A program made the position numbers and the translations under genes. Positions 9,090 to 11,736 of a DNA stretch of 64,000 nucleotides are shown in pieces (position 1 is the first letter of the stretch; the number at the start of each line of letters is the position of its first letter). The notes under the pieces were generated by a model that did not search any database, was not told the DNA's origin, and saw only the letters and a list, made by a program, of their open reading frames with translations. This DNA comes from Geminicoccaceae bacterium (GTDB lineage Bacteria; Pseudomonadota; Alphaproteobacteria; Geminicoccales; Geminicoccaceae). The stretch covers positions 2,606,451-2,670,450 of the forward strand of contig AP024683.1 of assembly GCA_025999455.1 (NCBI GenBank). The letters are read 5' to 3'.

Positions 9090-10270
9090 GCGCCGCGACC
9101 TCCTGCCCCGCCTGCGCCGGAGCGGCGCTCGAGCCCGTCTGGCACGTCGCCTCGGTGCCGGTCCATTCCTGCCTCATGGTCGAGAGCGAGGCCGAGGCGC
9201 GCGCCTTCCCGCGCGGCACGCTCGAGCTCGTCTTCTGCCGCTCTTGCGGCTTCCTCTTCAACGCCGCCTTCGATCCCACGGTTCAGCGTTATTCGCCGGC
9301 CTACGAGGAGACGCAGGCCTTCTCGCCGCGTTTCCTCGCCTTCTTGGCCGAACTTTGCGAGGATCAGGCGCGCAAATACGAACTTTCGGGCCGGCTCGCG
9401 CTCGAGATCGGCTGCGGCAAGGGCGAGTTCCTCGCAGCGCTCGTCGAGCGCACGGGGTGCCGCGGCATCGGGATCGACCCGGGTTTCCGCCCCGAACGGC
9501 TCACGACCGCCGCCGCGTCCCGGCTCACCTTCGTGCGCGACCTCTACGGGCCCGCTTGGCGGCACCTCGCCCCCGACTATCTCGCCTGCCGCCACACCCT
9601 CGAGCACGTCGGCCCGGTCGCGGCTTTCGTGCGGACCGTCCGCGAGACGCTCGGCGACCGGCCCGACACGGTCGTCATGTTCGAGCTGCCCGATCTGCGC
9701 CGGATCCTGCTCGAGCAGGCCTTCTGGGACCTCTATTACGAGCATGCGAGCTATTTCGGGGCGGGCTCGCTCGCCCGCCTGTTCCGCCGCGAACGGTTCG
9801 CGGTCCACGCGCTCTGGCGCTGCTACGACGACCAGTACCTCGTCCTCGAAGCGCGCCCCGCCGCCGCGCCGACCGAGCCCGGCTCGCCGCTCGAGGACGA
9901 TCTCGCCGAAACGACGGCCCTCGTCGCTGCCTTCCGCACCGGAATCGCGGCCAAGATCGCGGCCTGGCGCGCCCGGCTCGACACGTGGCGGCGCGAGGGC
10001 CGGCGGGTCGCGATCTGGGGCTCGGGCTCGAAGGCCGTGGCGTTCCTCGTCGTCCTCGGGCTCGGCGAGGAGATCGTGGCCGTGGTCGACGTCAACCCGC
10101 ACAAGCACGGCCGCTACCTGGCCGGGACGGGGCACCGGATCCACGGCCCCGACGAGCTCCGCGCGATCCGCCCCGACATCGTCCTCGTCATGAACCCGAT
10201 CTACCTCGAGGAGATCCGCCGGGCGCTCGCCGCCCGCGATCTCGCCCCGGCGCTCGAGCCCGTGCGGTGA
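9086..10270 (+). CDS. Second zinc-ribbon SAM-dependent methyltransferase
   Basis: The 394-residue protein shares the architecture of its upstream neighbour. It has a zinc ribbon (CPACAG near the N-terminus and FCRSCGFLFN near 50), a SAM-binding motif ALEIGCGKGEFLAAL (about 107), DLYYEHASYFG (about 216) and a C-terminal AIWGSGSKAVAFLVVLGLG domain. Sequence identity to the first methyltransferase looks low, so this is a diverged relative rather than a recent duplicate. The GTG start overlaps the previous stop (GTGA). It is the last gene of the deoxysugar cassette. It could methylate a second position or act on a different intermediate. Substrate unknown. Confidence 0.88.
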   Translation: MSAATSCPACAGAALEPVWHVASVPVHSCLMVESEAEARAFPRGTLELVFCRSCGFLFNAAFDPTVQRYSPAYEETQAFSPRFLAFLAELCEDQARKYELSGRLALEIGCGKGEFLAALVERTGCRGIGIDPGFRPERLTTAAASRLTFVRDLYGPAWRHLAPDYLACRHTLEHVGPVAAFVRTVRETLGDRPDTVVMFELPDLRRILLEQAFWDLYYEHASYFGAGSLARLFRRERFAVHALWRCYDDQYLVLEARPAAAPTEPGSPLEDDLAETTALVAAFRTGIAAKIAAWRARLDTWRREGRRVAIWGSGSKAVAFLVVLGLGEEIVAVVDVNPHKHGRYLAGTGHRIHGPDELRAIRPDIVLVMNPIYLEEIRRALAARDLAPALEPVR

Positions 10271-10288
10271 GGCGTGGCCGCGGCCGCC

Positions 10289-10326
10289 TTGGCGGTCGGG
10301 CGGCCCTGATCTAGAACGGTTCCAAG
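10289..10326 (+). promoter_or_regulatory. Promoter with overlapping Irr box (ICE) before mbfA-like gene
   Basis: TTGGCG (10289-10294), a 17-nt spacer and TAGAAC (10312-10317) form a promoter. Overlapping its -10 is TCTAGAACGGTTCCAAG (10310-10326), an imperfect palindrome that matches 11 of 14 fixed bases of the iron control element TTTAGAA-N3-TTCTAAA. The element binds Irr, which represses mbfA under low iron in Rhizobiales. Position over the -10 fits repression. Confidence 0.65.
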
Positions 10327-10377
10327 CTCGTAACGCCTCGTGGCGATGATGCAGCCGCCTCCTGCACGAGAGGACCG

Positions 10378-11358
10378 ATGCTCGGCTTCGCCCTGCGCCC
10401 GCAGAAGCGCTTCACCGACCTTTCCGAGCGCGAGATCCTGGCGCTCGCCATCACGCTCGAGGAAGAAGACGGGCGGATCTACCGCGACTACGCGGAGGGC
10501 CTGCGCGAGCAATATCCCGCGACCGCCAAGATCTTCGAGGCGATGGCGGAAGAGGAGAGCGAGCACCGCCGTCGGCTCATCGACCTCTACCGGCAGAAGT
10601 TCGGCGAGCACATCCCGCTCGTCCGGCGCGAGGACATTCGCGGCTTCGTGCGCCGCAAGCCCTTGTGGTTGACCCGCCCGCTCGGTCTCGAGGCGGTCCG
10701 CCGGCAAGCCGCCGAGATCGAGGAGGAGACCGGCAATTTCTACCGCAAAGCCGCTCAGCACGTGACCGATGCGAGCATCCGCAAGCTCTTGATCGACCTC
10801 GCCGAGACCGAGCAGGAGCACGTCGCGACCGCGGAGCGGCTCGAGGAGCGGCACCTCGCGGGCGAGGCCGGTAAGAGCGAGGAGGAGCAGGCCCGCCGCC
10901 GTTTCGTCCTGCAGTTCGTCCAGCCGGGCCTGGCCGGGCTCATGGACGGTTCGGTGAGCACGCTCGCCCCGCTCTTCGCCGCGGCCATGGCGACCGGCAA
11001 CTCCTGGGAGACCTTCCTCGTCGGCACCGCCGCTTCGGTAGGGGCGGGGATCTCGATGGGCTTCGCCGAGGCCCTCTCCGACGACGGCGCCCTCACCGGC
11101 CGCGGCCATCCCTGGGTCCGGGGGTGGGTGTGCGGTGGCATGACCACGCTCGGCGGGATCGGCCACACGCTCCCCTATCTGATCCCGGACTTCTGGATCG
11201 CCACCACGCTCGCGGTGGCCATCGTGTTGGTCGAACTCTGGGCGATCGCCTACGTGCGCGCCCGCTGGATGGACACGCCCTTCCTGCAGGCCGCCTTCCA
11301 GGTCGTCGTGGGCGGCTTCCTCGTCTTCCTGTCGGGGATCCTGATCGGCAGCGCCTGA
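10378..11358 (+). CDS. mbfA: Membrane-bound ferritin-like iron exporter (MbfA-type, ferritin + VIT1/CCC1)
   Basis: The 326-residue protein fuses an N-terminal ferritin-like di-iron domain (about 10-160) to a VIT1/CCC1-type membrane domain (about 170-326). Iron-ligand motifs are ITLEEEDGRIYRDYAEG, EEESEHRRRLID, EIEEETGNFYRKA and AETEQEHVATAERLEE. The membrane part starts GLAGLMDGSVSTLAPLFAAA and has about five hydrophobic segments. In Bradyrhizobium and Agrobacterium, MbfA exports iron and protects against iron and peroxide stress. The predicted Irr box upstream supports that role. The ATG start follows GAGAGGAC. The gene converges on erpA, an iron-sulphur carrier, with 27 nt between. Confidence 0.92.
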   Translation: MLGFALRPQKRFTDLSEREILALAITLEEEDGRIYRDYAEGLREQYPATAKIFEAMAEEESEHRRRLIDLYRQKFGEHIPLVRREDIRGFVRRKPLWLTRPLGLEAVRRQAAEIEEETGNFYRKAAQHVTDASIRKLLIDLAETEQEHVATAERLEERHLAGEAGKSEEEQARRRFVLQFVQPGLAGLMDGSVSTLAPLFAAAMATGNSWETFLVGTAASVGAGISMGFAEALSDDGALTGRGHPWVRGWVCGGMTTLGGIGHTLPYLIPDFWIATTLAVAIVLVELWAIAYVRARWMDTPFLQAAFQVVVGGFLVFLSGILIGSA

Positions 11359-11385: not shown

Positions 11386-11736
11386 TCAGATGGAAAAGCT
11401 CGAGCCGCAGCCGCAGGAGCTCGAGGCGTTCGGGTTCGAGACCTTGAAATAGGCCCCCGACAGGTCGTCGACGAAGTCGAGCTCGGCGCCCAGCACGTAG
11501 AGCAGCGACATCCCGTCGACCGCGACCTCGACCTCGCCGGCACGGACCACCACGTCGTCGGGGAACGCGCTGTCGTCGAGCGCGAACTTGTAGCGGAAGC
11601 CCGAGCAACCGCCGCCTTCGACCGCGACGCGGAACTTGAGCCCGGGCCGCCCGTCCTTGCGCACGAGCTCGCCGATGCGCCGTGCGGCGGCCGGTGTGAC
11701 GCGGATCGGATCGGGCCGACCCTTGATCTCGGCCAT
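11386..11736 (-). CDS. erpA: Iron-sulphur cluster insertion protein, A-type carrier
   Basis: A 116-residue A-type carrier (HesB/IscA/ErpA family) that hands Fe-S clusters to apoproteins. The three conserved cysteines are visible, one in GGGCSGFRYKF (about residue 45) and two in SSCGCGSSFSI at the C-terminus. Placement divergent from dgt is the widespread alphaproteobacterial erpA | dgt arrangement, so I prefer ErpA to IscA or SufA. The ATG start is standard. A TTGACA-type promoter with an internal inverted repeat lies upstream. Confidence 0.93.
   Translation of the reverse strand: MAEIKGRPDPIRVTPAAARRIGELVRKDGRPGLKFRVAVEGGGCSGFRYKFALDDSAFPDDVVVRAGEVEVAVDGMSLLYVLGAELDFVDDLSGAYFKVSNPNASSSCGCGSSFSI

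Follow-up and report, generated by a model that had tools for sequence, protein, structure and literature searches.

A predicted Irr operator upstream of the iron exporter gene mbfA in Geminicoccaceae

The window, a 64,000-nucleotide stretch of a Geminicoccaceae genome analyzed here as a whole, carries a 7-3-7 inverted repeat upstream of mbfA, a gene for a ferritin-like iron exporter. This palindrome is very probably an Irr operator, through which Irr would repress mbfA under iron or haem shortage. The observation of the palindrome was confirmed, and its interpretation is supported at the sequence level. The predicted arrangement is a known kind of Irr control, familiar from nitrogen-fixing bacteria and their relatives, extended to the little-studied Geminicoccaceae.

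Results

A predicted Irr-box palindrome precedes mbfA

The palindrome TCTAGAACGGTTCCAAG agrees with TTTAGAA-N3-TTCTAAA, which we take to be the Irr-box consensus, at 11 of the 14 fixed bases, leaving three mismatches. A first-pass annotation of this DNA had reported the same match, and the claim was borne out: no other site in the 64-kb window comes within three mismatches of the consensus (0.03 expected), and only 3 of 100 shuffled windows reach one such site. When the window was scored with a matrix trained on 11 Irr boxes, all from outside Geminicoccaceae, the site ranked first at 15.4 bits, and the runner-up reached 4.1 bits. The 3.76-Mb single-contig genome was searched by pattern instead of by matrix, a procedure that may miss weaker Irr targets. 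The degenerate pattern TYTRGAA-N3-TTCYARA, with at most one mismatch, was found at two places in the genome, the mbfA box and a box upstream of katG, compared to none for the reversed control pattern. Pooling nine genomes gave 19 places versus five for the control. At up to two mismatches, the whole genome showed no excess (13 places versus 19 in the control).

Table 1. Features of the mbfA upstream region and gene, in window positions.
Feature	Position	Strand	Basis
Possible -35 hexamer TTGGCG, 4/6 to consensus	10289..10294	+	Read from sequence
Palindrome TCTAGAACGGTTCCAAG (7-3-7), predicted Irr box or iron control element	10310..10326	+	Consensus match, matrix score, conservation
Possible -10 hexamer TAGAAC, 4/6, within left arm of box	10312..10317	+	Read from sequence
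CTCGTA directly 3' of box	10327..10332	+	Genus alignment; kept save one base in G004 (CCCGTA)
CGAGAGG, likely ribosome-binding site	10367..10373	+	Invariant in six genus members, adjoins start codon
mbfA, ferritin-like + VIT1 iron exporter, 326 aa	10378..11358	+	Pfam Rubrerythrin and VIT1; NCBIfam NF045676

The gene and its possible promoter

The mbfA product scored 533.4 bits against the FeExpMbfA equivalog (cut-off 450) and combines a rubrerythrin-type domain with a VIT1 domain, in agreement with the earlier description of an MbfA-like ferritin-VIT1 gene. Convergent to mbfA, on the minus strand at 11386-11736, lies erpA (NCBIfam score above the cut-off). No Irr box was found between erpA and the next gene, where the best matrix score was -8 bits.

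The box had also been described as overlapping a TTGGCG-N17-TAGAAC promoter. Letters and spacing are present as described; the identification as a promoter is less secure, with each hexamer matching at four of six positions and a standard promoter scan over 10230-10400 returning no promoter. The spacing is retained in three of the six genus members, G004, G005, and G015 (as TTGCAG-N17-TAGAAT), and not in G001-G003; G001 and G002 carry TGGAAC where TAGAAN is expected in the box arm. The hexamers TTGGCG and TAGAAC belong to only part of the genus. Of the 31 boxed mbfA loci, 12 have a TTG at a distance of 16-18 bases ahead of the box's TAGAAN position, versus 2.2% per position elsewhere; this is an exploratory count for which the offsets were picked as the usual spacer, close relatives were counted separately, and two of the loci are irr-negative. 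A second TTG cluster was located 21-25 bases before the same position in 11 boxed loci. The Irr box probably sits on the mbfA core promoter, with an arrangement that varies between loci, and such a placement would fit a repressor.

Conservation across Geminicoccaceae

mbfA was present in 25 of the 60 genomes searched, counting that of the window, and all 25 contained an irr gene above the cut-off. Using 400 dinucleotide shuffles per locus and the matrix trained outside Geminicoccaceae, a box was detected at p <= 0.005 in 18 of the 25 mbfA loci (window's included), spanning 11 genera. An earlier null, drawn from loci around irr, contained real boxes of other families and made the p-values too pessimistic (2 of 25 below 0.01). 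The seven loci with irr and mbfA and without a significant box were those of G006, G020, G026, G025, G021, G009 (p = 0.075), and G041; G006, G020, and G026 form one genus, and G041 belongs to a different family. In the genus of G006, G020, and G026, irr and mbfA are present, the mbfA box has been lost, and katG gave no match. At the protein level, MbfA of Marinimicrococcus flavescens is 79% identical to the window protein.

The upstream DNA of the six members of the window's genus was poorly alignable save for GATCTrGAA-N3-TTCCAAnCyCGTA and the ribosome-binding site, and the longest conserved block of this alignment contains the Irr box. Conservation of the palindrome upstream of mbfA orthologues, which the first-pass annotation had named as a check, was thus found both in the 18 of 25 loci and in the genus alignment. 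Together with the irr gene of the genome, the box conserved before most mbfA orthologues supports the earlier proposal that the Irr regulon reaches this lineage.

Irr and other metal regulators encoded in the genome

Two Fur-family proteins were found in the genome. One is IrrA (NCBIfam NF045678, 174.9 bits, cut-off 150), whose gene lies near the bacterioferritin gene bfr; the other is Zur-like and falls below its cut-off. This Irr keeps the HxH haem-binding motif (DDHHHFY) and has no cysteine in its 167 residues; it is consequently without the N-terminal Cys-Pro haem regulatory motif, unlike the Irr of Bradyrhizobium. A Cys-Pro pair near the Irr N terminus was present in three of the six genus members. 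Of the two regulator genes that had been suggested as a search, irr was therefore found, and rirA was not detected above the cut-off among the three Rrf2 proteins of the genome: one is a SUF regulator above its cut-off, one fits the superfamily only, and the remaining one reached 113 bits for RirA (cut-off 193) and 108 bits for NsrR (cut-off 182). The genome also encodes one DtxR-type domain. In the accessible sections of a review, differing Irr mechanisms are tied to species with versus without RirA (PMC7762939).

When 7 kb around irr were searched, including bfr and bfd (the latter identified by eye), no Irr box was found within one mismatch of the degenerate motif. In all six genus members, a diverged box-like site with one to three mismatches to this motif precedes irr by about 160 bases (L171, at ~2730-2750, and its counterparts in L168 and L172-L175), which is suggestive of possible irr autoregulation through this site. 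Strong Irr boxes were also observed just downstream of irr in other families of Alphaproteobacteria (L032, L033, L034, L040, L044, L045, and L049), about 400-520 bases after the start of the irr match; these boxes perhaps serve the next gene.

A second predicted target, katG

The highest-scoring Irr box detected in the genome is TTTAGAAATATTCCAAA, with 25 bits; it is located upstream of katG, which encodes a catalase/peroxidase (G000:C1:2319726-2319742; L141, L176). The katG box reached 16-25 bits in all five genus members with sequence at this place (G002 is cut by a contig end) and in G017, which belongs to a different genus. Among the 19 katG copies with upstream sequence, those scoring at least 15 bits were these six and one of the two G009 copies (15.4 bits). 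By reading of the sequence, TTGACC precedes TATTCC at a distance of 17-18 bases in each of the five genus members, with TATTCC inside the box, and the katG box likely overlaps the -10 of katG. As predicted here, the detectable Irr set in the window's genome is iron export (mbfA) plus a haem peroxidase (katG). Irr boxes at katG may have been mentioned in earlier literature. In G017, a further box was found before an ABC permease gene of unclear substrate.

The box and irr beyond the family

From 468 matches, the best 80 mbfA relatives were taken, originating from Alphaproteobacteria, Acidobacteriota, and a few other phyla. irr was searched in 65 of these 80 genomes (the other 15 comprised eight already in the family set, six Acidobacteria, and one other) and exceeded the cut-off in 10. 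Locus L135 was dropped owing to too little upstream sequence, leaving 64 loci, of which five of 10 irr-positive versus two of 54 irr-negative loci had a box within two mismatches of the textbook motif (p = 6e-4). An additional draw of 289 genomes from the class yielded 17 mbfA carriers, of which 13 lie outside the family; here, the box was present in four of nine irr-positive and none of four irr-negative genomes, a difference not significant alone (p = 0.23). Pooling all 77 mbfA genomes gave nine of 19 irr-positive versus two of 58 irr-negative (p = 2e-5, uncorrected for kinship), although genome completeness is not given for the named genomes and some irr absences may be gaps. Leaving out L065, an irr-positive genome shared with the family set, gave eight of 18 versus two of 58 (p = 8e-5, likewise uncorrected). 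We relied on these textbook-consensus counts; the matrix-based Fisher tests are partly circular, some of the tested sites having trained the matrix.

Ten of the 19 irr-positive genomes of the wider set were without a box within two mismatches, and two Methylobacteriaceae loci, L079 and L090, showed a box-like site before mbfA in genomes without an Irr hit. In one of these genomes, a Zur-like protein was the only Fur-family protein found, and in the other none was found.

A Fur-box-like palindrome in irr-negative genomes

Another palindrome, TTGMGAA-N3-TTCKCAA, was found with at most two mismatches before mbfA at 14 of the 54 irr-negative loci versus none of the 10 irr-positive loci (0.1 expected over the 64 loci), a count made in the same loci from which the pattern was derived and including several close relatives, six of which share one sequence. 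We call it Fur-box-like by its presumed resemblance to the Fur box. The sites lie 57-160 bases before mbfA (L107, L113, L118, L124, L129, L136, and others), and eight of the 14 loci are in records titled Acetobacteraceae or Rhodopila.

The palindrome shares the 7-3-7 geometry, the GAA/TTC core, and the position of the Irr box. On the Irr matrix it scored 14.1 bits compared to 15.4 for the window site, so the sensor cannot be told from the letters alone. All six such genomes examined (G083, G087, G090, G091, G093, and G097) were found to encode Fur-family proteins. Classified as domain fragments, the Acetobacteraceae-type proteins of G090, G093, and G107 each resembled Fur most closely, with 71-80 bits (cut-off 146); the mbfA palindrome of G107 has three mismatches to TTGMGAA-N3-TTCKCAA. 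Around nine fur genes, nothing close to this pattern was found (best, four mismatches), which speaks against the Fur-box reading or against fur autoregulation.

Discussion

Irr would act on mbfA as follows. Under a shortage of iron and haem, Irr, whose gene lies elsewhere in the genome, would bind the palindrome, cover the core promoter, and shut off mbfA, such that iron would not be pumped out. A rise in iron or haem, or the presence of peroxide, would lead to release or destruction of Irr and to mbfA expression. In this scheme, we infer that the window's Irr binds the site, that its effect is repressive, and that haem, iron, or peroxide is what it responds to.

Comparable control has been reported for several Alphaproteobacteria. 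According to the accessible text on Rhodobacter sphaeroides, mbfA is a direct Irr target, with its mapped 5' end falling inside the Irr box, two Irr boxes were predicted (mbfA and ccpA), and Irr did not bind at katE; the affinity of Irr for mbfA was only ~800 nM, and no major role in iron-dependent mbfA expression was ascribed to it (PMC3413700). As far as that text goes, the two systems are alike in having two predicted boxes, one at mbfA and one at a haem peroxidase gene, and in the placement of the mbfA box, which lies at the transcript 5' end there and over the likely core promoter here. They differ in that the second target is ccpA there and katG here, and in that binding and expression were measured in R. 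sphaeroides, whereas the present case is built from sequence.

In Bradyrhizobium japonicum, the available portion of the source describes repression of mbfA by Irr and Irr control of bfr (PMC4902296), in line with the statement of the first-pass annotation that Irr represses mbfA in Rhizobiales. The predicted operator and the exporter are of the same kind as those described there; in contrast to B. japonicum, the 7 kb surrounding irr and bfr contain no box within one mismatch of the degenerate motif here. The part of the Brucella report available describes a membrane protein with 65% identity to MbfA that is Irr-bound and repressed at low iron (PMC10374146). An mbfA-like gene with an Irr site, a predicted one here, is common to both; RirA is described as an Irr target in Brucella, whereas no RirA above the cut-off was found here. 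Within the open-licence literature, which mostly leaves subscription papers uncovered, no paper on Irr in Geminicoccaceae was found. Our analysis would place Irr control of iron export in this family and offers a compact, testable two-gene set (mbfA and katG) resembling the Rhodobacter prediction.

We considered other origins for the palindrome. It is improbable that it serves a different repressor, such as the Zur-like Fur protein, one of the three Rrf2 proteins, or the DtxR-type protein, all of which the genome also encodes. Fur-box-like sites score fairly on the Irr matrix, and the two Methylobacteriaceae carry a box-like site without Irr; however, the letters fit an Irr box, the presence of the box goes with irr across genomes, and the same box recurs at katG and, diverged, upstream of irr. 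A coincidental palindrome deserves hardly any weight. Although the site has three mismatches to the textbook motif, and the degenerate motif shows no genome-wide excess over the control at up to two mismatches, only 0.03 such sites were expected in the window, and the site holds its position throughout the genus and recurs in 11 genera.

A box that is real by descent but has no regulatory effect, or an activating one, appears very unlikely. The accessible sections of one source state that Irr can activate or repress by position (PMC7762939), and in R. sphaeroides, Irr is described in the text seen as hardly affecting iron-dependent mbfA expression (PMC3413700). On the other hand, the same text gives an ~8-fold higher mbfA expression for the irr mutant under iron limitation (PMC3413700), the box is conserved amid upstream DNA that aligns poorly elsewhere, and its position over the likely core promoter is consistent with repression. 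Repression of mbfA by Irr is the reading we prefer.

The occurrence of Irr-type versus Fur-type operators on one exporter gene would provide a natural comparison for sensor swapping in evolution. The mbfA operator might follow the Fur-family sensor of the host, with an Irr box where Irr is present and the Fur-like palindrome in many irr-negative genomes, chiefly Acetobacteraceae; this generalization is tentative, and we lean against it at present. If it were true, a few arm substitutions would transfer an iron exporter from one sensor to another of opposite metal logic, and in the window's genus Irr would be reduced to a safety switch acting on iron export and KatG. The host range of the exporter itself may also be broader: among the matches listed, MbfA relatives with 62-71% identity were present in Acidobacteria, Verrucomicrobiota, and Tepidisphaeraceae records (L068, L070-L073, L133, L138, and others), suggesting that an MbfA-type exporter may occur outside Alphaproteobacteria, by transfer or, possibly, through binning error.
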